Positions 46,882 through 57,386 of a stretch of DNA of 57,386 nucleotides are shown one piece after another. A program made the position numbers and the translations under genes. The stretch is from Prochlorococcus sp. AG-402-O21 (GTDB lineage Bacteria > Cyanobacteriota > Cyanobacteriia > PCC-6307 > Cyanobiaceae). The notes beneath the pieces were generated by a model. It had not been told where the DNA came from, ran no database searches, and was given only the letters and a program-made list of their open reading frames with translations. The stretch lies in the NCBI GenBank assembly GCA_003216375.1, contig QCIZ01000011.1:1-57386 (forward strand), given 5' to 3'. Position 1 is the first letter of the stretch, and each line of letters opens with the position of its first letter.

Positions 46882-48573
46882 ATGAATACTAATCAACAGC
46901 TTTTTTTTAAAGAAAACAGAGATGAGTTGGGTACAGAGGAGGAGATTGATTTAAAACAATTTTATAATTTTTTATTGAGAAATACAAAATTAATTGGGAT
47001 ATTTGCTTCTCTTGGTTTATTTATTAGTTGTTTGATTGCTTTTAATACTAAAAGAGTTTGGCAGGGTGAATTCCAAATTGTTCTAGAAGGTAGTTCATCA
47101 TCATCATTGCCTTCTGTTAATCAAAGAATTGCAAGAATTGTTGGTATAACGCCTGAGGCTAATTCATTAGAAACTGAGATTGGCATTTTAAAAAGCCCAT
47201 CTGTTTTGATGAATGTTTTTGAATTTGTTAAAACGAATAAATCAGAAAAAACTAATTCTTCGATGCAAGGTTTAAGATTTAAAAAATGGCGAAAAGATTC
47301 ATTAGATATAATTTTAGAAAAAGGTACCACAATATTAAACCTCGCTTATAAAGATACAGATAAAGATCTTATCCTTCCCGTCCTAAATAACATTTCTTCT
47401 ACTTATCAAGGATTCGCTGAAAAGAAAAGAATTAGAAGTTTAGAATTAGGTTTAGATTATTTTAAAGAACAAATTAGTGTATATAAAAATAAAAGTATAT
47501 TATCACTTTCTAAGGCGCAGAAATTTGCTACTGATAATGATTTAGTTATTATACAGGATGAATCAACAATTAATTCCACTGGAAATCCAGCTAATATAGA
47601 AACTATTAGAGTCAAAGCTGCTAATCAGATAAGAATTATAGATCAACAGCTTGTTCAAATTTCTAATTTAAAAGATAAATCAGATGATCAAATAATATAT
47701 TCTGCTTCAACAATTCCTGAGATGTTAGATTTATCTAATAAGTTAAAAGATATTGATACGAAATTAGCAAGACTACGTGTGATTTATAAAGATAATGATA
47801 AAACAATTCAGAAATCGATTAAAGAAAGAGCATTTCTTATTGACTTGCTTAAGAAACAAGTTGTTGGATTCTTGAAGGCAAGAAAAGCAGATGCGCAAGC
47901 ACGTATGAAGGCAGCTGAACGCCCGGAAATAGTATTGATAGAATATAAAATGCTTTTAAGTAATGCTTTAAAAGATCAATCTACTCTTGATGATTTAGAG
48001 TCTCAGAATAGACTGCTTTTGTTAGAGAAGGCCCGTAGCAAGGAGCCTTGGAAATTAATTACTAATCCCACATTACTTCCTTATCCAGTAGCCCCAAGTC
48101 GAAAAAAGATTTTAGCTCTTGGACTTTTTTGTGGAATATTTTTGGGAACTGGTGTAGCAATGATTTCTGAAAAAAGAAAAAATATTATCTATTCAATATC
48201 TGAATTGGAGGCATTGGGTCAATGGAATTTCATCGTTGAATTATCGGGAAATCAGAAAAAATACTGGGATAAATCACTTAACTTATTAGTGACTAATCAA
48301 CTTTTAGATGTTAATGGAAGTATTGCTCTAATTGCAATTGGTGAAATCAATAATTCATTACTGGAAGAGCTTTATAAATCATTGAAGGATCTTTTAGGGA
48401 ATTGTGAGCTTATAGTTACGAAAGACTTGCTTGAATCAAATAAATTTACTAACTTAATTGTTCTAACAGCTTATGGAATAACAAGAAGAGACGAATTATT
48501 AGATACAAATATAAAGCTTTTATTGCAAAAAGAATCAGTATTAGGTTTGTTAACTTTAAACAATATAAATTAA
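46882..48573 (+). CDS. Wzz/GumC-like polysaccharide chain-length protein with degenerate C-terminal domain
   Basis: This inner-membrane polysaccharide co-polymerase regulates chain length and export. An N-terminal helix (LIGIFASLGLFISCLIAFNT, about residues 32-52) and a second helix (ILALGLFCGIFLGTGVAMIS, about 412-432) frame a periplasmic coiled-coil domain. About 130 cytoplasmic residues follow, where tyrosine autokinases have a P-loop. Here the comparable strand SIALIAIGEINNSLLEELY has no Walker A, and no Tyr-rich tail follows. It probably interacts with export machinery without kinase activity. The Wza-like gene follows after 70 bases. Confidence 0.82.
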   Translation: MNTNQQLFFKENRDELGTEEEIDLKQFYNFLLRNTKLIGIFASLGLFISCLIAFNTKRVWQGEFQIVLEGSSSSSLPSVNQRIARIVGITPEANSLETEIGILKSPSVLMNVFEFVKTNKSEKTNSSMQGLRFKKWRKDSLDIILEKGTTILNLAYKDTDKDLILPVLNNISSTYQGFAEKKRIRSLELGLDYFKEQISVYKNKSILSLSKAQKFATDNDLVIIQDESTINSTGNPANIETIRVKAANQIRIIDQQLVQISNLKDKSDDQIIYSASTIPEMLDLSNKLKDIDTKLARLRVIYKDNDKTIQKSIKERAFLIDLLKKQVVGFLKARKADAQARMKAAERPEIVLIEYKMLLSNALKDQSTLDDLESQNRLLLLEKARSKEPWKLITNPTLLPYPVAPSRKKILALGLFCGIFLGTGVAMISEKRKNIIYSISELEALGQWNFIVELSGNQKKYWDKSLNLLVTNQLLDVNGSIALIAIGEINNSLLEELYKSLKDLLGNCELIVTKDLLESNKFTNLIVLTAYGITRRDELLDTNIKLLLQKESVLGLLTLNNIN

Positions 48574-48643
48574 GGGAACTAATATCATGGATAAATCTAA
48601 TCACCTTTCGCTCGACTCCTAACTCTTATTTTTTTATAATAAA

Positions 48644-49807
48644 ATGATTAAATCATCAAATTATAAACTCCTAGCTCTAAAGTTCTTATTATTAAACTCT
48701 TTAATATTAGGTGGCTTGTATGACACAAGGCAAGCATATGGTCGAGAAAATATTAATAAGCCATCAAAAGATTATATACGACAGCTCCCAGATACTTCTG
48801 CTTATATTATAGGACCTGGTGATATATTAAAAGTAAAGGTTTCAGAAGATACAGCAGCTTTAAATAAAAGCGTCACTGTTGATAGTGAAGGAATTGTTAA
48901 CCTTGAAAGATTGAAAAGAATTTATGTTTCTGGCTTGAATATAAGCGAATTGACAGAAATTTTAAATAATGAATATTCAAAATATGTCAAAGAACCAAAT
49001 GTAGAATTATTCATAGTTAGTTATAGGCCGGTGAAATTTTATATAGATGGTGAGGTTGAGGAGCCTGGCTTACATATTTTGTCAGGTTCAGATAGTCCGT
49101 TAGATGATTTATCTTTTTTGAATAAAAAACAAAATAGTGTTGAAAATTCAATAGTTTCACCTATTAATAATTTTAAAACAAATAATATCTTTTTCCCTTC
49201 TCTTATTGATGCAATTAGAATAAGTAAAGGTATAACTCAGTATGCAGATATGAGGAATATTAAGATTACTAGAGTTGATAGTATTTCTAATGGTGGAGGT
49301 CGTATTGGAACTAAAGTAAATCTTATTGATACACTTGATTTGAAAGATGACTCTCAAAATGTACGCATTTTTGATGGTGATATGATTTTTATTCCAAAAA
49401 ATGACAAACCTGTTTTATCGGAGATATCTAAGGCTATAAAGTCAAATATAAATCCAAAATTTGTTGATATATTTCTAGGTGGAAGAGTCGAAAAACCAGG
49501 TCCCATAACAGTTAGTAAAAGTTCAGTTTTATTAGAGGCAATTCAGTTAGGAGGTGGTACAAAGTTTCTGAAAGGGAAAGTTAACTTTTTAAGATATAAC
49601 AATGATGGGACTATTGATCAAAGAGTTTTTTCATTACGTAAATCTGCTCCTAGGGGCTCGTATCAAAACCCTTTCTTAAAAAATGGAGATTTAATTTATG
49701 TGGGTAAGAGTCCTTTAAATATAACAACTGAGATACTTACTGAAATAACCTCACCAATTAGTAATATAGTTTCTACATATGGTTTATTTAAGATTATAGC
49801 TGACTAA
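48644..49807 (+). CDS. Wza/GumB-like polysaccharide export protein
   Basis: This outer-membrane/periplasmic polysaccharide export protein has an N-terminal signal-like segment (LALKFLLLNSLILGGLYDTR, no clear lipobox cysteine). The poly_export domain is YIIGPGDILKVKVSEDTAAL, and two SLBB-type repeats follow (PVKFYIDGEVEEPGLHILSG and FVDIFLGGRVEKPGPITVSK, each before an I..GG segment). The 387 residues and domain order match GumB/Wza relatives. Paired with the Wzz-like gene, it probably exports the same polymer. Lack of a lipobox suggests it is not lipid-anchored, unlike E. coli Wza. Confidence 0.86.
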   Translation: MIKSSNYKLLALKFLLLNSLILGGLYDTRQAYGRENINKPSKDYIRQLPDTSAYIIGPGDILKVKVSEDTAALNKSVTVDSEGIVNLERLKRIYVSGLNISELTEILNNEYSKYVKEPNVELFIVSYRPVKFYIDGEVEEPGLHILSGSDSPLDDLSFLNKKQNSVENSIVSPINNFKTNNIFFPSLIDAIRISKGITQYADMRNIKITRVDSISNGGGRIGTKVNLIDTLDLKDDSQNVRIFDGDMIFIPKNDKPVLSEISKAIKSNINPKFVDIFLGGRVEKPGPITVSKSSVLLEAIQLGGGTKFLKGKVNFLRYNNDGTIDQRVFSLRKSAPRGSYQNPFLKNGDLIYVGKSPLNITTEILTEITSPISNIVSTYGLFKIIAD

Positions 49808-49890
49808 AAATATCATAAATCTTTTATATTTTTTTATAAAAGAAAATTTAAATAATTAAAAATTAAAAAATACTTATTGCTAGTTGATAG

Positions 49891-50370
49891 TTAAGATAAT
49901 CCAATTCCTCTTGCCATTAAGGTTGCTAAAAATGGAATAGAAACAAAACCCACAAGCTCAATATTTAATATTAGCCTTAATCTGGAAACTAATTTTGAGC
50001 TTACATTAGGCAATTTACCTTTACTTAAAGGGATGGCCCACAAAATATATGTAAATGTTGGATAAAGTGATAATGAGCCTACTAAACCGAAAGTAACAAT
50101 CTTTGTCCAAAATATAGGATTATTAGTGTAAAACTCAGATCCTTGACCAAATTTGATAACCCTATAAATCCCGCTTACTAAAAGTGCTAATCCTGCAATT
50201 CCATAAATTATATCTGCAATAACCATTGATATAGACTCTTTTCTGTCAGGGTCAACTTTTAAAGATATTCGTTCATATATCAAGGCACCAAAACAAATCA
50301 TGAAGCTTACATAATGAACATATGCGATTGAAGCATTTTTAATAACTTCTGATGGAAAAGAAAAACCCAT
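49891..50370 (-). CDS. DUF2214 family membrane protein
   Basis: This is a four-helix integral membrane protein of a family common in cyanobacteria and proteobacteria; the function is unknown. The helices are ASIAYVHYVSFMICFGALIY, MVIADIIYGIAGLALLVSGI, WTKIVTFGLVGSLSLYPTFT and ELVGFVSIPFLATLMARGIG. A conserved-looking His (YVHYV) near the first helix and the GIYRVIKFGQG loop fit the family. The 159 residues are normal. It is transcribed against its neighbours and has a strong ribosome-binding site. Confidence 0.83.
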   Translation of the reverse strand: MGFSFPSEVIKNASIAYVHYVSFMICFGALIYERISLKVDPDRKESISMVIADIIYGIAGLALLVSGIYRVIKFGQGSEFYTNNPIFWTKIVTFGLVGSLSLYPTFTYILWAIPLSKGKLPNVSSKLVSRLRLILNIELVGFVSIPFLATLMARGIGLS

Positions 50371-50586
50371 CTAACCTCCTTTGTTATCATTTTATACTTT
50401 AATGACTATTGCAATATACCGCTCGCCAAGTTTTGTCCTCGCTTTCTTAATGAGGTAGAAGATATTTTTGAGACTTCTAAAGAATTGATATTTTATGGAG
50501 AAGAACCCTTCTTCTTATGGGTCTTATTGCTAAGTTATACATATTTTAAGGAGTATTGGCTTATGGGAGAAAGCGTTATAGTATAA
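50371..50586 (+). pseudogene. Startless protein-like reading frame
   Basis: Codons from 50371 to the TAA at 50584-50586 are open (71 sense codons), reading YFNDYCNIPLAKFCPRFLNE, then VEDIFETSKELIFYGEEPFF and LWVLLLSYTYFKEYWLMGES. No ATG, GTG or TTG is usable until codon 40 (TTG). The aromatic and acidic composition is unlike random sequence. It is probably the tail of a decayed gene whose front was lost when the DUF2214 gene was placed here. I do not recognise the family. Confidence 0.35.
50375..50382 (-). promoter_or_regulatory. Strong Shine-Dalgarno site for the DUF2214 gene
   Basis: On the minus strand AAAGGAGG lies four bases before the ATG at 50370. Most genes in this AT-rich window have weaker sites, so it supports this start and suggests good expression. 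Confidence 0.7.
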
Positions 50587-50632
50587 ATTAAATTGCTAGC
50601 TCCTAACATAATTAAATAATTGGAGACGTAGA

Positions 50633-51028
50633 ATGATAAAACAAAGGCTAAAGAAATTCTTATTAGGCTTTCTTTTTTTTATTATTGCTTTAAATATAAA
50701 CATATTTTCTAGACAACCAGAAAAAGTATTTGCTTTGGAGGATAGTGATTCTAAATTAATCGAAAAAATATCTAAAGACTACACTAAGAAATTTTGCAAT
50801 TCAATTGGCTTTGGCCTTTCGAAGGAAAGTGCTATGAAGTTTTCATTTATAGAAAATAAAGAGATTTTCAAAAGTAGGAAAGGCTTTAAAAGTATAAACA
50901 AAGAATTACTTGCACAAAAAATAGCTAATTTAGTTATTGATGGTTGTGGCTATCAATTAGATTTATACGGAGATAAAGATATTGAAGAATTTTCTGAGTA
51001 TTACTTATCTTTTGATAAAGAGAATTAA
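50633..51028 (+). CDS. Small exported conserved hypothetical protein
   Basis: The 131-residue protein has a signal peptide (KKFLLGFLFFIIALNINIFS, cleavage possibly after VFA). The helical mature domain contains CNSIGFGLSKESAMKFSF and AQKIANLVIDGCGYQLDLYG, with two cysteines that could pair. I believe similar proteins occur in other marine picocyanobacteria, but no function is known. TTGGAGA lies eight bases before the ATG. It is followed by a 550-base gap holding a gene remnant. Confidence 0.78.
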   Translation: MIKQRLKKFLLGFLFFIIALNINIFSRQPEKVFALEDSDSKLIEKISKDYTKKFCNSIGFGLSKESAMKFSFIENKEIFKSRKGFKSINKELLAQKIANLVIDGCGYQLDLYGDKDIEEFSEYYLSFDKEN

Positions 51029-51584: not shown

Positions 51585-53867
51585 TTGAAGAATAATTTTC
51601 CTGAAAGGATAACTATATCTTTATCAATACTTCAGTATAGCGTTACTCCTGAATATTCAATTAAAGAAGTAATGAGTAAAATAGAATCTAATGAGAAAGG
51701 AATAGCTTTTTGTGTTGATGAACTTGGAATTCTTCAAGGTTCTATTTCCGATGGTGATATTAGAAGATGGATGATGTCAAAGTCTACAGTAAATTTAAAC
51801 TCGCTAAAAGTAAATGAAATTATAAATAAAAATTGTATTTCTGTATTTAAAGATTCAATAGAGAAAGTTGACCAACATTTTAACGACCGTTCTTTAAAAG
51901 CTGTTCCTATTATCGATAGAAATAAAAGACTCTATGCTATTGCAACAGAGGCAAATAAATCATTTGAAATTTCAAATCATATTATCAACAATGATAATAA
52001 GATTTTTGTGATTGGAGAAATTGGAAATAATCATCAGGGATCTCTTGAGAATGCAAAAAAATTAATAAAAATAGCATCTAACGCTGGAGCATCTGCAGCG
52101 AAATTTCAATTACGCGATCTTTCTTGCTTGTATGATCTTAATGATAACAAAAACAAGCTAGAAGATTTAGGCACAGAATATACAATTGATCTCTTAAAGA
52201 GGTTCCAACTAAGTGATGATGATCTTTTTAAAGCATTCGACTATTGCCACACTTTAGGAATTACACCTTTATGTACGCCATGGGATATAACATCTGTAGA
52301 AAAACTAGAGAAGTATGGAATTGAGGGCTATAAAATAGCTTCTGCTGATTTTACTAATACTGAGTTAATTAAAGCAGTAGTTAAGACACGAAAACCTATG
52401 ATTTGTTCAACTGGTATGTGTTCTGACTCCGAAATTGTTTCGGGAATAAAGAACTTAAAGAACCAATATGCAAATTTTGCATTGCTTCATTGCAACTCTA
52501 CATACCCAGCTCCTTTTAAAGATATTAATTTACGATATATCGAGAAACTATCTAAATTGGGTAAATGTATTGTTGGTTATTCAAGTCATGAAAGAGGATT
52601 TAGTGCGATTTTAGCTGCCGTAGGCTTAGGAGCAAGAATCATAGAAAAACATATTACGTTAGATAAAACCTGGGAGGGTATTGATCACAGGGTTAGTTTA
52701 ATTTATTCTGAATTTAATAATATGATTAAAGAAATTAATGACGCAAATCAATCTTTAGGATTAGGAGATTCACGGTATCTTAGTCAAGGAGAAATAATAA
52801 ATAGAGAAAATCTTGGAAAAAGTATTTTTGCTAGTAAAAATATAGAATTAGGAGAAGTTTTTACTCATGATTCATTTAGAATTATGAGCCCTGGTAAAGG
52901 ATTAAGTCCTTATTACAAAGATGACTTAATTGGTGTTAAGGCTAAAAGAAATTTTAAGGAAGGTGATATTTTAGAGATGTCTGATTTAAAGAATGATGCA
53001 GTTGTAGGACGAGAATATGTTTTTAATAGACCTTTTGGTTTGCCTGTAAGATATCATGATGCTGTTAATTTAATAGAACAAACTAATGCTAATTTAGTTG
53101 AATTTCATTTAAGTTATAGAGATTTAGAAAGAGACTATTCAGACTTCATAAGTAAAGAAAAAATAGAAAGATTACCTGAAAAGTTTGTGGTTCATTGCCC
53201 TGAGTTGTTTGCAGGTGATCATTTATTAGATCTTTGCACTAATGATGAATCATATAGAGAAGAGTCTATAAAAAATTTACAAAATACTATTAATGCAACA
53301 AATAAACTTAAAAGAATATTTCCCAATCATGAAAAGCCTATTATAGTTGTTAATGTTGGAGGTTTTACTCTAGATAATCATTTAAGCAAAGAAGAAAGAT
53401 ATATTTTATATGACAACTTAAAAGAATCACTTCAAATGATTGATCATAGCGAAGTTAGGCTTTGTCCTCAAACAATGCCACCATTTCCTTGGCATTTTGG
53501 AGGACAGAGATATCATAACTTATTTATTTATCCTGATGAAATTAATAAATATTCTAAAGAACTAGAACTAGAAATATGTTTAGATATTTCACATTCAAAG
53601 CTAGCTTGTAATTATTATAAAATTGATTTCTTAGAATTTCTTAAAACCGTATTACCTGTTACTAGTCATATGCATATATCTGACAGCTCTGGTGTGGATG
53701 GAGAAGGCTTACAAATAGGGGATGGAGATATAAATTTTGCTGAATTCTCTCCTCTAATTAATAATCTTAATCCTTATGCTTCTTTTATTCCCGAGGTTTG
53801 GCAGGGGCATAAAAACAATGGTGAGGGATTCTGGAAAGCATTGAATTATTTAGAAGAAATTTTTTAA
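51585..53867 (+). CDS. Four-domain NeuB-like sugar acid synthase (CBS pair - NeuB - SAF - TIM barrel)
   Basis: NeuB enzymes condense PEP with an N-acetylated hexose to give sialic acid-like nonulosonates. This 760-residue protein is over twice the usual length. Residues ~10-125 are a CBS pair (GIAFCVDELGILQGSISDGD, LKAVPIIDRNKRLYAIATEA). Residues ~140-395 are the NeuB barrel (FVIGEIGNNHQGSLENAKKL, SAAKFQLRDLS, GYSSHERGFSAILAAVGLGA, IIEKHITLDKTWEGIDHRVS). Residues ~400-467 are the antifreeze/SAF domain. Residues ~472-760 are a xylose isomerase-like barrel (FVVHCPELFAGDHLL, LEICLDISHSKLA, HMHISDSSGVDGEGLQIGDG). The start is TTG 51585. The last barrel may isomerise the sugar substrate. SpsF-like, transketolase and aminotransferase genes follow within a few bases. 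Confidence 0.88.
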   Translation: MKNNFPERITISLSILQYSVTPEYSIKEVMSKIESNEKGIAFCVDELGILQGSISDGDIRRWMMSKSTVNLNSLKVNEIINKNCISVFKDSIEKVDQHFNDRSLKAVPIIDRNKRLYAIATEANKSFEISNHIINNDNKIFVIGEIGNNHQGSLENAKKLIKIASNAGASAAKFQLRDLSCLYDLNDNKNKLEDLGTEYTIDLLKRFQLSDDDLFKAFDYCHTLGITPLCTPWDITSVEKLEKYGIEGYKIASADFTNTELIKAVVKTRKPMICSTGMCSDSEIVSGIKNLKNQYANFALLHCNSTYPAPFKDINLRYIEKLSKLGKCIVGYSSHERGFSAILAAVGLGARIIEKHITLDKTWEGIDHRVSLIYSEFNNMIKEINDANQSLGLGDSRYLSQGEIINRENLGKSIFASKNIELGEVFTHDSFRIMSPGKGLSPYYKDDLIGVKAKRNFKEGDILEMSDLKNDAVVGREYVFNRPFGLPVRYHDAVNLIEQTNANLVEFHLSYRDLERDYSDFISKEKIERLPEKFVVHCPELFAGDHLLDLCTNDESYREESIKNLQNTINATNKLKRIFPNHEKPIIVVNVGGFTLDNHLSKEERYILYDNLKESLQMIDHSEVRLCPQTMPPFPWHFGGQRYHNLFIYPDEINKYSKELELEICLDISHSKLACNYYKIDFLEFLKTVLPVTSHMHISDSSGVDGEGLQIGDGDINFAEFSPLINNLNPYASFIPEVWQGHKNNGEGFWKALNYLEEIF

Positions 53868-53871
53868 ACTT

Positions 53872-54624
53872 ATGAAAGTAATTGCAATAGTTCAAGCTAG
53901 AATGAGTTCAACTCGTCTTCCAGCAAAAGTACTTTTAGATCTTTACGGTAAACCTATAATTTTAAGAATGCTTGAAAGACTTATTAAATCAAAACGTTGC
54001 AATAATATTATAATTGCAACAACAATAAATCCAATTGATAATATTATTTCTGATTTATGTATTGATTCAGGTTTAGAATTCTACCGTGGTCATCCTACAG
54101 ATCTTTTAGATAGACATTATCATTGCGCAAAAAAATACAAAGCTGATTTAATCCTAAAAATCCCCTCTGATTGTCCACTGATTGATCCTTCATTAGTAGA
54201 TGAATGTATTGAATTGATACAGTCAAATAATTATGATTATGCTTCTAATATACATTCACATAATTTTCCTGATGGACAAGATGTTGAGGCTTTTAGCATG
54301 GATGCTTTAGAATATAGCTATAAAAAAGCGAATAAAGAATACCAGAGAGAGCACACTACGCCTTATATATACGAGAATAAATCTTTATTCAAAACAATTG
54401 AGATGCAGTCACCTTATGAGGAAAAAAGCTTTTACAAATATAGATTGACATTAGACTATATAGAAGATTACTGGTTGATTAGAAAAGTATATAATTCATT
54501 CAATGGAAATGTCTTTACTTTAAAGGATATAATCAAACTTTTAGATAGTAATAATTACATAAGAAATATAAATTCTTTGCACCACTCAAAAGCTTGGTAC
54601 AATAATAAGAACATATTAAATTAA
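53872..54624 (+). CDS. SpsF-like cytidylyltransferase
   Basis: This CMP-sugar synthetase relative probably activates the acid made by the upstream NeuB-like enzyme. The nucleotide loop VIAIVQARMSSTRLPAKVLL, NIIIATTINP, GHPTDLLDRHYHCAKKY, LKIPSDCPLIDPSLVDEC and the FPDGQDVEAFS segment are characteristic of SpsF/acylneuraminate cytidylyltransferases. The 250 residues are normal for the SpsF group. It begins 4 bases after the NeuB-like gene and is followed by 1 base before the transketolase gene. The true nucleotide and sugar are inferred. Confidence 0.85.
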   Translation: MKVIAIVQARMSSTRLPAKVLLDLYGKPIILRMLERLIKSKRCNNIIIATTINPIDNIISDLCIDSGLEFYRGHPTDLLDRHYHCAKKYKADLILKIPSDCPLIDPSLVDECIELIQSNNYDYASNIHSHNFPDGQDVEAFSMDALEYSYKKANKEYQREHTTPYIYENKSLFKTIEMQSPYEEKSFYKYRLTLDYIEDYWLIRKVYNSFNGNVFTLKDIIKLLDSNNYIRNINSLHHSKAWYNNKNILN

Positions 54625-54625
54625 G

Positions 54626-55489
54626 TTGAATAGAAAAAACCCTCAATTTGAAAAACTTACGAAGACATCTCTTTTGGTTAGAGAGAGTTGTTTAGGTATG
54701 GCATACAATGGAGGCTGCTTTTTAGGTGCATCTCTTTCTTGTGTAGATATCTTGGTTTATTTATATGGTCATTTTCTAAATTGTAATAAAAATAACTTCA
54801 GAAATGAAAATAGAGATTACTTGTTTCTATCCAAAGGCCATGATGTCCCTGCCCTTTATTCAGTTCTTGCAGAGAATGGTTTCTTTAGTAAAGATAGATT
54901 ATTAAATCATCTTTCAGGTAAAGATTTCATTTACTGGCACCCAAATACTAAGATACCTGGAATAGAATTTCATTCAGGTTCTCTTGGACATTTGCCCTCT
55001 GTTTCGCTAGGCGTTGCTATTAATAATAAATTAAAAAAAATAAACTCTAAAGTTATTACCATTATTGGAGATGGTGAACTTAATGAAGGTTCTATTTGGG
55101 AATGCCTATTAGTAGCATCTTCATTAAAAATTGCTAACTATTGTCTTATAGTTGATAGAAATCATTTTCAGGCTAATGGTCCTACAGAAGAGATAATGCC
55201 TTTAGAACCTCTTAGAGAAAAATTTATATCCTTTGGATGCAATGTTTATACAGTTAATGGTCACTCTTTTGAAGAAATGAATCAATGTTTTGAAAGTATA
55301 AACTTTAATTCACCTGGTACAAAAGTAATCATTTGCGATACTATTAGAGGTAAAGGTATTCCTAGTATTGAAGCAAAGGCTGACAAGTGGTTCTGCACCT
55401 TAGATAAGGAAATGTACGATAATCTCTTAATAGAATTACAAACTGGTGATGAATCTGGCGTACAAATCCCTTCAACATGTGTTAGATAA
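54626..55489 (+). CDS. Transketolase-like protein, N-terminal (TPP-binding) subunit
   Basis: Split transketolases move two-carbon ketol units between sugars with thiamine diphosphate. The 287-residue subunit has SCVDILVYLYGHFL, DYLFLSKGHDVPALYSVL, HSGSLGHLPSVSLGVAI and the TPP motif VITIIGDGELNEGSIWECLL, then YCLIVDRNHFQANG and the DTIRGKGIPSIEAKADKW segment. The start is TTG 54626. It overlaps the C-terminal subunit gene by one base. It is separate from the pentose phosphate transketolase expected elsewhere, so a sugar-specific role is likely. Confidence 0.88.
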   Translation: MNRKNPQFEKLTKTSLLVRESCLGMAYNGGCFLGASLSCVDILVYLYGHFLNCNKNNFRNENRDYLFLSKGHDVPALYSVLAENGFFSKDRLLNHLSGKDFIYWHPNTKIPGIEFHSGSLGHLPSVSLGVAINNKLKKINSKVITIIGDGELNEGSIWECLLVASSLKIANYCLIVDRNHFQANGPTEEIMPLEPLREKFISFGCNVYTVNGHSFEEMNQCFESINFNSPGTKVIICDTIRGKGIPSIEAKADKWFCTLDKEMYDNLLIELQTGDESGVQIPSTCVR

Positions 55490-56409
55490 TGGACTATATT
55501 GATGTTTTGGGGCAATTGTATAATGAAGATCCAAGTATTGTTGTAATAACAGCAGAAAATAGAGCTTTAATAAGAGATTTAGAGAAGAGATATCCTCAAA
55601 TACCTTTCATTGATGTTGGGATAGCAGAACAAACTGCTGTTGGTGTTTCTGCAGGATTAGCTAAGTCAGGAATGAAACCAATAGTTCATGGTCTTGCCTC
55701 TTTCCTTACAATGAGATCCTATGAATTTATCAGGACAGATATAGCTTTACCAAAATTAAATGTAAAATTTGTTGGCTTTATACCAGGTTTACTTTCGGAG
55801 GCTAATGGTCCTACACATCAAGCTATACAAGATTTAGCATTAATGCAAACTATGCCAGGAATGAATATTTTCCTTCCGTCAGATTATGAAGATATGCTTG
55901 AATGTTTACCAGAAATAATAAAAAATGATGGCCCTAGCTATATAAGAGCTAATCATATTAGATCAGGTGTAAATCATTCTAGATTCATAATTCCTGAGTC
56001 TGAAAAAATTAGAAGTGGTAGCGATATTACAATACTTTCTTATGGACCGTTGTTAGAACAAAGTAATAAACTATGCGATAGATTAATTGATAATTGTATT
56101 TATTCAGACTTATATAATATAAGGTCATTTACCCCTTTTGATAAAAAGCTTTTAAGAAAACTATATAAAGAAAATAAGCCAATAATTGTGATAGAGGATC
56201 ATTTGGAATTTGGTAGTCTATACAATCATTTATTAACTATTAGTAAGAAAGATGATGAAAGACTAAATCTATTCCCTATTAATTTGGGCAACAATTACCA
56301 TAAACCTCTATTGCTTAAAGATTTAATGGCAGAAGATTGTTTTTCTATTAACAATTTATATGAACTTATAATAGATTTTATAAAAGATCCTAAATTAAAT
56401 AAAGCATAA
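55489..56409 (+). CDS. Transketolase-like protein, C-terminal subunit
   Basis: This is the partner of the preceding subunit. The pyrimidine-binding domain has VVITAENRALIRDL, FIDVGIAEQTAVGVSAGLAK (with the catalytic Glu that activates the TPP pyrimidine), PIVHGLASFLTMRSYEFIRT, GLLSEANGPTHQAIQDLALM and MNIFLPSDYEDMLECLPEII. The C-terminal domain has TILSYGPLLEQSNKL and PIIVIEDHLEFGSLYNH. The 306 residues are normal for the split form. Stop and start share one base (TAATG), so translation is coupled to the first subunit. Confidence 0.88.
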   Translation: MDYIDVLGQLYNEDPSIVVITAENRALIRDLEKRYPQIPFIDVGIAEQTAVGVSAGLAKSGMKPIVHGLASFLTMRSYEFIRTDIALPKLNVKFVGFIPGLLSEANGPTHQAIQDLALMQTMPGMNIFLPSDYEDMLECLPEIIKNDGPSYIRANHIRSGVNHSRFIIPESEKIRSGSDITILSYGPLLEQSNKLCDRLIDNCIYSDLYNIRSFTPFDKKLLRKLYKENKPIIVIEDHLEFGSLYNHLLTISKKDDERLNLFPINLGNNYHKPLLLKDLMAEDCFSINNLYELIIDFIKDPKLNKA

Positions 56410-56435
56410 TGCGCTAATGATTAAAACTTAATCCT

Positions 56436-57386
56436 ATGAATTCAGTAAAAAAATCATTATCTCTATTGGAAGAGGCAAGAAAAATAATGTACCCCCCTAC
56501 TCAAACAATTGCAAAAGGTCCATCTCAATTTGTTGAGGGGGTATCTCCTGTTTTCGCTAAAAAAGGTAAGGATGGACACATATGGGATGTAGATGATAAT
56601 GAATATATAGATTTAAATATGGCTGTAGGACCAGTTTCTCTTGGATATTGTTTTGATAAAGTAGATTCTGCAATTAAAAGTCAGTTAGAGAAGGGCATTA
56701 CTTTTAGTCTAATGCACCATCTAGAATATGATTTATCTAAAATAATTAATAATGTAATTCCTAATGCAGAGGTTGTTAGATTTAGTAAAACAGGAGCAGA
56801 TGTTTGCTCAGCAGCAATAAGAGTAGCTAGAGCATATACAAAGAAAGAAAAAATAATTTGCTGTGGCTACCATGGTTGGCATGATTGGTATATCTCTACT
56901 TCATCAATGAATTCAGGGATACCAATTTCTAACATGTCAGAAGTTTCATCCGTGCCTTACAATGATATAGATATAGTTAAATCGAAAATAGATTCTAATA
57001 CGGCTGCTGTGATATTAGAACCAGTTTTATTTGAGAAGCCTAATCCTAATTTTCTCTCCGAACTTTTGGATATTTGTAATCAAAAAGGTGCTCTTCTTAT
57101 CTTTGATGAAATGTGGACTGGTTTTAGACTTGCATTAGGGGGAGCTCAAGAATTCTTTGATGTTGTTCCACACTTATCTGTATTTTCAAAGGCTTGTGCC
57201 AACGGAATGCCTCTATCTATACTTACTGGAAAGAAAGAGATAATGAGTGTGTTATCTGATGAAGTTTTCTTTTATACAACATTCGGCGGAGAAGCTTTAT
57301 CTTTAGCAGCGGCGAAGACCACTATCGAAATAATGCAGAACGAACCTGTAATAAAAACTATTTGGGAAAATGGAGAAACTTTAATC
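56436..57386 (+). CDS. Class III (glutamate-1-semialdehyde-type) aminotransferase, 3' end cut by the window
   Basis: This PLP enzyme resembles glutamate-1-semialdehyde aminomutase but sits in a sugar operon. ATG 56436 opens a frame (MNSVKKSLSLLEEARKIMYP) that is still open at the window end, so no stop is seen. GIRM-like family marks are present: RFSKTGADVCSAAIRVARAY, CCGYHGWHDWYI, AAVILEPVLFEKP, LLIFDEMWTGFRLALGG and the PLP lysine in LSVFSKACANGMPLSILTG. Context suggests it transfers an amino group to a keto- or aldo-sugar made by the transketolase. The substrate is inferred. Confidence 0.85.
   Translation, partial: MNSVKKSLSLLEEARKIMYPPTQTIAKGPSQFVEGVSPVFAKKGKDGHIWDVDDNEYIDLNMAVGPVSLGYCFDKVDSAIKSQLEKGITFSLMHHLEYDLSKIINNVIPNAEVVRFSKTGADVCSAAIRVARAYTKKEKIICCGYHGWHDWYISTSSMNSGIPISNMSEVSSVPYNDIDIVKSKIDSNTAAVILEPVLFEKPNPNFLSELLDICNQKGALLIFDEMWTGFRLALGGAQEFFDVVPHLSVFSKACANGMPLSILTGKKEIMSVLSDEVFFYTTFGGEALSLAAAKTTIEIMQNEPVIKTIWENGETLI

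Follow-up and report, generated by a model that had tools for sequence, protein, structure and literature searches.

A Prochlorococcus operon that may serve a second, non-canonical ulosonic acid pathway

We identified an operon in Prochlorococcus sp. AG-402-O21 in which a fused NeuB synthase is encoded beside an SpsF-type cytidylyltransferase, a transketolase-like pair, and a class III aminotransferase. We favor, at a probability of roughly 0.55, the reading that this operon serves a second, non-canonical ulosonic acid pathway. Nonulosonic acids are mostly predicted via a small number of gene sets. A step that depends on thiamine would, to our knowledge, be new chemistry for them. At title and abstract level, and among the matches listed, the literature held no description of a set that combines NeuB, transketolase, and a class III aminotransferase.

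Five genes at a contig end

The window – the whole stretch of DNA analyzed, 57,386 nt – is the entire contig C11 of the assembly, so the operon at its right end is truncated by the assembly and the genes further right are not readable. The operon comprises:

51585..53867, + strand: gene 1, fused ulosonate synthase, 760 aa (open reading frame, Pfam)
53872..54624, + strand: gene 2, SpsF-type cytidylyltransferase (CTP_transf_3), 250 aa (Pfam 2.1e-35)
54626..55489, + strand: gene 3, transketolase-like N-terminal (ThDP-binding) subunit, TKN, 287 aa (Transketolase_N 1.9e-18)
55489..56409, + strand: gene 4, transketolase-like C-terminal subunit, TKC, 306 aa (Transket_pyr 6.8e-27, plus Transketolase_C)
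56436..57386, + strand: gene 5, class III aminotransferase AT3, glutamate-1-semialdehyde (GSA)-aminomutase-like (Aminotran_3 3.5e-46)

The initial annotation had described five tightly spaced, same-strand genes, which the spacing of +4, +1, –1, and +26 bases bears out, and Pfam concurs with the names it gave them (NeuB, SpsF, split transketolase, class III aminotransferase). The AT3 frame is still open at 57386, with only 317 residues before the contig end. Against NF004856 (glutamate-1-semialdehyde 2,1-aminomutase PRK06209) this cut protein scored 279.2 bits (4.8e-83; cut-off 486); a hunt with the same model for the operon's missing right part gave no match to the C-terminal remainder of AT3 at E ≤ 1. 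Promoter and terminator scans were at chance level (38 vs 39.6 and 3 vs 2.6, respectively).

The five genes likely form one functional unit around the NeuB synthase and the SpsF-type cytidylyltransferase, and the grouping appears to exceed chance because the same families are found together again in other loci. Judging by their position, Wzz/Wza-like proteins encoded upstream could export the product; their genes are separated from the operon by 1,777 bases that include an opposite-strand DUF2214 gene. Also upstream of gene 1, at a distance of 4.8 kb, is a GalE gene.

Gene 1 is a fused synthase that lacks Arg314

Gene 1 had been read simply as a NeuB-like synthase. The NeuB domain is there (PF03102, 9.3e-74), which places the protein in the NeuB/sialic acid synthase superfamily, but that reading missed CBS, SAF, and xylose-isomerase-like AP_endonuc_2 parts:

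51627..51944, + strand: CBS domain pair, residues 20–117, related to its counterpart in arabinose-5-phosphate isomerase KpsF (TIGR00393 4.9e-7)
52002..52994, + strand: NeuB catalytic and SAF domains, residues 140–470
52113–52115, + strand: Arg177 of the KxQxR motif (alignment)
52887–52889, + strand: Ser435, aligned with Arg314 of the N. meningitidis NeuB
53076..53855, + strand: AP_endonuc_2 domain, residues 498–757 (Pfam 1.4e-19)

Pfam delimits the CBS stretch to residues 19–64 and SAF to residues 413–469. A profile from an alignment of 19 of the 38 fused proteins matched the CBS part of arabinose-5-phosphate isomerase in the PDB (4o9k, 2.2e-12), and the CBS pair is possibly a feedback sensor. 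Among these 19 proteins K173, Q175, K250, H335, and H356 of the NeuB domain are invariant, and include what we take to be the conserved lysines and metal-binding histidines of NeuB; D667, H670, H695, H697, and E737 of the AP_endonuc_2 domain are invariant too and look like a metal site. Gene 1 scored under the cut-offs for both the N-acetylneuraminate synthase equivalog TIGR03569 (271.8 bits, cut-off 399.65) and pseudaminic acid synthase TIGR03586 (233.2 bits, cut-off 340.25).

Of 400 genomes sampled from the cyanobacterial family, 53 encode the fusion of NeuB with the isomerase-like domain; within the same sample, gene 1 relatives aligned end to end, at 47–50%, in 41 genomes other than this one. 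An Ensifer megaplasmid also encodes an end-to-end match (47%). Three phage records matched the NeuB part only, a scan of genome contigs gave one weak locus, and a scan of viral contigs gave six pattern matches and no relatives.

In sialic acid synthase, Arg314 positions the N-acetyl group (PMC6795526). We found a residue other than arginine at this position in all 38 fused NeuB proteins read, a set that covers the 29 family loci except L015 and L028. Of NeuB proteins that lack the CBS/AP fusion, 14 were readable at this site and 13 have arginine. With Arg314 lost, the sugar probably lacks an N-acetyl group at C2, so the product would be Kdn-like, not Neu5Ac-like. The fused proteins also carry the KxQxR arginine, which was present in 15 of 15 sequences (13 fused proteins, the Methylomagnum NeuB described below, and the second NeuB of locus L051) vs 0 of 26 other NeuB proteins; for L149, whose row in the tree alignment is too short at this site, the residue was taken from a separate alignment. 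The NeuB tree, which includes 13 fused proteins, puts these and Methylomagnum on one side of a 15/26 split (support 100/96), and also supports a split of the 13 fused proteins from 28 others including Methylomagnum (99/97). Such a synthase branch, with Arg314 lost and KxQxR gained, would imply that ulosonates in this family are being misnamed or overlooked.

A matching enzyme block in Methylomagnum

A matching enzyme block is carried by the distantly related methane-eating bacterium Methylomagnum ishizawai, whose plasmid NZ_AP019784.1 encodes SpsF, TKN, TKC, AT3, SDR, NeuB, and HAD in a single run. Identities with Prochlorococcus are 42% for SpsF, 52% for TKN, 38% for TKC, and 53% for AT3, and the proteins of the two organisms are sisters in each of the three trees built (TKN, 100/100; AT3, 99/98; SpsF, 97/96). 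The search for the five-gene set elsewhere thus recovered the SpsF–TK–AT3 block together with NeuB, but in Methylomagnum NeuB is unfused and without SAF, and the full set containing the transketolase (TK) pair is known from two loci only. The top match of the Methylomagnum HAD is KDN-9-P phosphatase, at 153.7 bits (under the cut-off of 180); against the KdsC subfamily it scored 143 bits (over the cut-off of 106.95).

That the Methylomagnum block comes with its own unfused NeuB, and that the Prochlorococcus operon is truncated, speak for a competing reading in which the operon combines two pathways. One ulosonic acid would be made by the fused NeuB, as in related cyanobacteria, and SpsF, TKN, TKC, and AT3 would serve a second sugar whose NeuB or other genes are located past the contig end. 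Fused NeuB commonly occurs without TK or AT3 – among 20 fetched loci a TK pair was found in one and a distant class III aminotransferase in one – so the operon may indeed carry two sugar pathways. In seven of the 20 loci, sulfotransferases and DUF6716 putative glycosyltransferases accompany the fused NeuB, and in seven the stretch encodes another kind of cytidylyltransferase (c5). However, the AT3-type SpsF is the sole cytidylyltransferase visible next to the fused NeuB in this operon, and the fused and Methylomagnum NeuB proteins share KxQxR and the 15/26 split, though the tree's 13/28 split is supported too. On balance we regard this arrangement as a rather unlikely, if serious, competitor to a single second pathway.

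AT3 keeps company with NeuB and SpsF across many loci

The initial annotation had proposed an operon for an amino-ulosonate. A likely NeuB/SpsF unit with an aminotransferase is supported: of 44 AT3 loci (the Prochlorococcus locus included, and L137 and L138, identical in AT3 and NeuB, both counted), 28 have NeuB within 10 kb and 26 have SpsF within that distance, and SpsF and AT3 form a single open frame in 5, both domains being found by Pfam in the one such frame tested (L193). Counting against the favored reading, TKN is within 10 kb in only 2 of the 44 loci, and TK is absent from 15 of 15 Pseudomonadota loci. These counts are lower bounds because several of the 44 loci end at contig ends. 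One further TK pair, in L149, lies ~5 kb from AT3 but is of a different type and sits inside a legionaminic-type cluster. AT3 is not bound to SpsF, since a PseF-type enzyme replaces SpsF beside it in L198 and L200. AT3 relatives from haloarchaea and Agrobacterium (L118, L119, L172) were judged to belong to other pathways, their surroundings being free of NeuB and SpsF matches over 7–8 kb on each side. Matches to the Methylomagnum AT3 occur in 60 phage records (30–40% among the matches listed), and AT3 occurs in 177 plasmid records, four of which were examined.

A separate legionaminic-type set in the same genome

As first claimed, none of the Neu, Leg, or Pse sets is matched by what can be seen of the operon: 4,6-dehydratase, DegT aminotransferase, and NDP-sugar hydrolase genes are absent from the five genes of this locus, which is cut at 57386. 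The reported lack of NeuC, PseB, and LegB holds for the visible part, but elsewhere in the genome contig C8 encodes LegB, LegC, and NeuC over cut-off. An apparent LegB match 9.7 kb from the Prochlorococcus AT3 is the upstream GalE. This legionaminic-type set has its own NeuB, with Arg314 retained, and its own cytidylyltransferase, so the gene 1 operon looks like a second system; for the same reason C8 is probably not the missing right part of the operon. Elsewhere in the genome, CTP_transf_3 matches comprise one clear case on C8 (83.8 bits) and one marginal case on C2 (22.8 bits).

Could the operon instead belong to a pathway of the pseudaminic or legionaminic type that employs unusual accessory enzymes, its dehydratase, PseC/LegC-type aminotransferase, and hydrolase lying downstream or on C8? 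AT3 relatives do occur in Pse-type clusters – in L120, AT3 and SpsF relatives lie inside a full set with PseB (529.5 bits), PseC (552.9), PseG (328.4), and PseI (486.7) all over cut-off – so AT3 by itself is no marker of a non-Pse product. An SpsF-like domain has likewise been proposed as a cytidylyltransferase substitute in the pseudaminic variant of Vibrio B9-25K2 (PMC7371886). The operon resembles PseBCHGIF in its NeuB-family synthase and SpsF-type activator, and the legionaminic pathway in having a NeuB-family synthase and a cytidylyltransferase. Unlike PseBCHGIF, both the visible operon and the Methylomagnum run have a TK pair instead of PseB, PseC, and PseG, and no match to these or to LegB or LegC was found within 10 kb of the Methylomagnum AT3. 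Unlike a legionaminic set, the operon holds none of the LegB, LegC, and NeuC genes, which sit with the separate C8 synthase, and the fused NeuB is set apart by its Arg314 loss and KxQxR. We consider such a pathway improbable.

The transketolase-like pair has lost conserved residues

The pair retains the ThDP motif (GDGE..N) and GIAEQ with its catalytic glutamate, and its best PDB matches are to the split transketolase of Carboxydothermus hydrogenoformans, 6YAK and 6YAJ (6.8e-47 and 7.9e-32), with which it also shares the two-gene split. Unlike that enzyme, TKN has phenylalanine at a site where 6YAK and 38 of the 39 further split TKs have histidine, and a second phenylalanine in place of the histidine of 6YAK's WH; TKC has isoleucine and asparagine at the sites of a histidine and an aspartate in 6YAJ. 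Presumably all of these are substrate-pocket positions, and neither the TKN His nor the TKC His/Asp of a transketolase pocket is present in the pair. We rejected the TKC changes as a special feature, since most other split TKs have lost both residues and L158 has the same asparagine; this left the odds of the readings unchanged, since neither the tree nor the TKN changes are affected. With ThDP motifs kept and conserved TKN residues replaced, even the label 'transketolase' is unproven, and building or trimming of the sugar skeleton by the pair, as originally suggested, is no more than a possibility.

Split-TK relatives occur in 35 of the 400 family genomes. Most of 20 fetched cassettes adjoin RmlB/GalE/RmlA-like genes, as do many on viral contigs, and the TKC pocket is altered in these as in the operon; by analogy the product of TK and AT3 might be a branched or amino sugar linked to NDP and unrelated to the ulosonate, but this is the least probable reading, since the Prochlorococcus and Methylomagnum TKNs form their own clade (100/100, stem 1.82), distinct from the cassette clade of 16 rows, carry residues absent from cassette-type TKN, and have no RmlB/GalE-type gene in the five genes or the annotated Methylomagnum run, GalE lying upstream.

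A candidate pathway

For a second, non-canonical pathway, the best reading of these sequences is that the substrate would be a non-N-acetylated, perhaps phosphorylated, sugar that AT3 aminates and SpsF activates. We infer reactions, step order, and chain length from what is observed, namely gene and domain content, recurrence, and residue changes. The isomerase-like domain of gene 1 would provide an aldose, which the NeuB domain would join to PEP, giving a Kdn-like product, perhaps formed as the phosphate. AT3 would add an amino group to the skeleton or a precursor; the thiamine-dependent pair would shift or remove a short stretch of carbons ahead of amination or alongside it; and SpsF would couple CMP. 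The first gene past AT3, in the unsequenced gap, is predicted to be an SDR, as in Methylomagnum.

In its fullest form the proposal is tentative, and we regard it as a possibility well short of even odds: a new amino-ulosonic acid would be reached without sugar nucleotides, by a route in which a two-subunit thiamine enzyme with a non-transketolase pocket would remodel a sugar (phosphate), a GSA-aminomutase-like enzyme aminate it, a Kdn-type KxQxR synthase, joined in this operon to an isomerase and a CBS sensor of its own, add PEP, and SpsF add CMP, the product being a surface sugar other than Neu, Leg, Pse, Kdn, or Kdo.

In the Kdo8N branch, KdnA and KdnB oxidize and then transaminate the ulosonate ahead of CMP activation. 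This offers a model for SDR, AT3, and SpsF, though the aminotransferase class differs.

The Kdn pathway of Bacteroides thetaiotaomicron and Prymnesium parvum (PMC6200933) condenses Man-6-P, the substrate of Kdn-9-P synthases, with PEP to Kdn-9-P, which a phosphatase and activation convert to CMP-Kdn. The operon would share with it a NeuB-family synthase for a non-N-acetyl sugar and, in the Methylomagnum copy, a KDN-9-P-phosphatase-like HAD. It differs in that no KdsC-like phosphatase was found in the Prochlorococcus genome (best E 0.26), in the fusion of the Prochlorococcus synthase to CBS and isomerase-like domains, and in the additional thiamine-dependent pair and aminotransferase.

A candidate operon for a variant ulosonate pathway

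Judged from its sequence, the five-gene operon makes a good candidate for a variant pathway to a ulosonate. The initial annotation had already proposed a ulosonate pathway operon, and this core idea holds – but it missed both a fusion in gene 1 and a second NeuB set on contig C8 of the same genome. The window is the whole of contig C11, from a genome of 1.76 Mb, and the contig end interrupts the operon; its five open reading frames and the gaps between them were confirmed. We regard the genome as cyanobacterial, and probably from a marine picocyanobacterium, since it encodes a relative of the photosystem II reaction centre: the psbA model scores 160.6 bits, under its cut-off of 596, and in a control set of 14 genomes matched Synechococcus elongatus alone. 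The operon has a G+C content of 30.8%, versus 36.7% in bases 1–43000. Putative export genes lie upstream:

Window 46882-51028: export genes resembling Wzz and Wza

An opposite-strand DUF2214 membrane gene and a 131-amino acid open reading frame, which had no match in a Pfam search, separate these genes from the operon. A role in the putative pathway is unproven for the export genes and for the split transketolase pair (TKN and TKC).

Gene 1 is a fused NeuB with an altered active site

Pfam assigned a CBS stretch, NeuB, SAF, and AP_endonuc_2 domains to gene 1, all within one fused protein. In a HMMER alignment to Neisseria meningitidis NeuB, Ser435 of gene 1 falls at the Arg314 position (the reference being 1XUU; 4IPI and 4IPJ deviate there). 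We take this position to be the one numbered 314 in the N. meningitidis enzyme, in agreement with PMC6795526. In that paper, Arg314 is described as positioning the ManNAc N-acetyl group (PMC6795526). Arginine is absent at this position from all 38 fused proteins that were read, and present in 13 of the 14 NeuB proteins that lack the CBS/AP fusion and could be read here, including the C8 NeuB. Within a 41-row set, a KxQxR motif occurs in all 13 fused proteins, the Methylomagnum NeuB, and a second NeuB of locus L051, and in none of the remaining 26 NeuB proteins. The corresponding tree supports the split of the 15 KxQxR proteins from the 26 others (100/96) and also that of the 13 fused proteins from the other 28 (99/97), making the Methylomagnum type intermediate. 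In the AP domain, D667, H670, H695, H697, and E737 are kept in 19 of 19 aligned fused proteins. From these features, we infer that gene 1 probably encodes a bifunctional isomerase-synthase whose substrate sugar lacks an N-acetyl group.

Matches to gene 1 at 1e-60 were present in 54 of 400 genomes sampled from the same cyanobacterial family (window genome counted). Whole-length matches came from 41 other genomes at 47–50% and three at 35%; eight partial matches (29–49%) comprised the NeuB and AP parts without CBS, and one comprised NeuB alone. Within the genus, 2 of 41 had any match at 1e-3, the second to the CBS part only. A relative at 47% is encoded on Ensifer canadensis plasmid pT173e. Gene neighbours of the fused NeuB differ among 20 fetched family loci: DUF6716 putative glycosyltransferases and sulfotransferases accompany it in seven (an annotation made in one of these, L038), and L042 is the only one whose 20-kb stretch includes a split transketolase pair. 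At L050 (7384-9756), a 790-amino acid open reading frame beside a CBS-NeuB-AP fusion combines a UDP-galactopyranose-mutase/amine-oxidase-like flavoprotein region with a NeuB domain.

A second nonulosonate set in the same genome

Contig C8 of this genome (G000) carries a legionaminic-type set in two groups ~28 kb apart:

C8 1267-3398 (L005): legionaminic-type set, one group
C8 31431-36769 (L006): legionaminic-type set, other group

NeuC (390.2; cut-off 235.9), LegB (508.1; 475), and LegC (489.3; 420) all score above their cut-offs; NeuB (396.2; 399.65) and a PseF-like cytidylyltransferase (157.1; 205.7) score below. A CBS-nucleotidyltransferase is also included. Given this set, the window operon does not seem to be required for a legionaminic-type sugar.

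A related Methylomagnum block and a distinct transketolase pair

On Methylomagnum ishizawai plasmid pRS11DPr1, the gene order is SpsF, TKN, TKC, AT3 (the class III aminotransferase), SDR, NeuB, HAD. Identities to the window are 42% (SpsF), 52% (TKN), 38% (TKC), 53% (AT3), and 35% (NeuB domain). Window and Methylomagnum proteins are sisters in the trees, which covered TKN (45 rows, 100/100), AT3 (30 rows, 99/98), and SpsF (17 rows, 97/96). The top NCBIfam match of the HAD protein is KDN-9-phosphate phosphatase (153.7 bits, below the cut-off of 180), followed by KdsC (143 bits, above the cut-off of 106.95). An lplT-annotated gene and those beyond it look unrelated to the block. The order transketolase, AT3, SDR, NeuB, HAD could possibly be read as a route via phosphosugars, though gene order is weak evidence.

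The closest solved relatives of TKN and TKC are both chains of one split transketolase (6YAK/6YAJ), and the ThDP-binding and GIAEQ motifs are retained. In window and Methylomagnum TKN, F stands at a position with H in 38 of 39 other split transketolases and R in the remaining one; both also have EFHSGSLGHL, versus EAATGSLGHG in the cassette type. At a further position, the H of 6YAK's WH is replaced by F. Relative to 6YAJ, an H of TKC is replaced by I (window) or F (Methylomagnum) and a D by N. At these positions most other split transketolases compared show G and L or a different residue, and L158 shares the N, so the distinctive changes are those of TKN, not TKC. In transketolases, the residues normally present at the altered positions have roles in sugar binding. 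About half of 20 other split transketolase loci fetched share one RmlA/RmlB/GalE-like cassette, conserved in the cyanobacterial family and possibly a branched-sugar pathway:

L090-L093, L095-L097, L102, L103, L106: split transketolase, RmlB- and GalE-like genes (RmlA-like in most), several unassigned genes

Together with this cassette setting of other split transketolases, the TKN residue changes mark the window and Methylomagnum pair as a distinct subfamily at the sequence level.

AT3 and a possible late amination

AT3 is rare in the family (3/400 genomes at 1e-60) and the phylum (5/358 at 1e-85, Methylomagnum query) and commoner in Pseudomonadota (15/388 at 1e-80). Within 10 kb of AT3 at 44 loci, window counted, we found NeuB (28), SpsF (26), PseB-like (23; tblastn matches at 1e-5, which may include other dehydratases), aldo-keto reductase (15), PseC-like (12), TKC (3), and TKN (2) genes. 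One stop-free frame spans SpsF and AT3 in 5 of the 44 loci, as Pfam confirms for L193, and such fusions suggest that AT3 works close to the activation step. KdnB/KdnA make Kdo8N, and class III enzymes frequently act on aldehydes, so an SDR and AT3 could yield a primary amine in the manner of that route. Amination as a late step is thus favoured, not proven.

PseB, PseC, and PseG score above cut-off at L120 and L147, as does PseI at L120. At L198 and L200, AT3 is partnered by a PseF-type enzyme instead of SpsF. Viral contig L132 (5264-14030) and its kin L131, L133, L134, and L137 carry NeuB, a PseB-like dehydratase, and AT3, with SpsF in all except L134. L132 additionally has GNAT genes and an SU10-type phage adaptor gene; a DegT aminotransferase was not found there. 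These contigs perhaps represent phage-borne nonulosonate synthesis in which AT3 replaces PseC. At L202 (10866-12923), AT3, SpsF, and an aldo-keto reductase have a Maf flagellin-glycosyltransferase as their neighbour, which suggests flagellin glycosylation.
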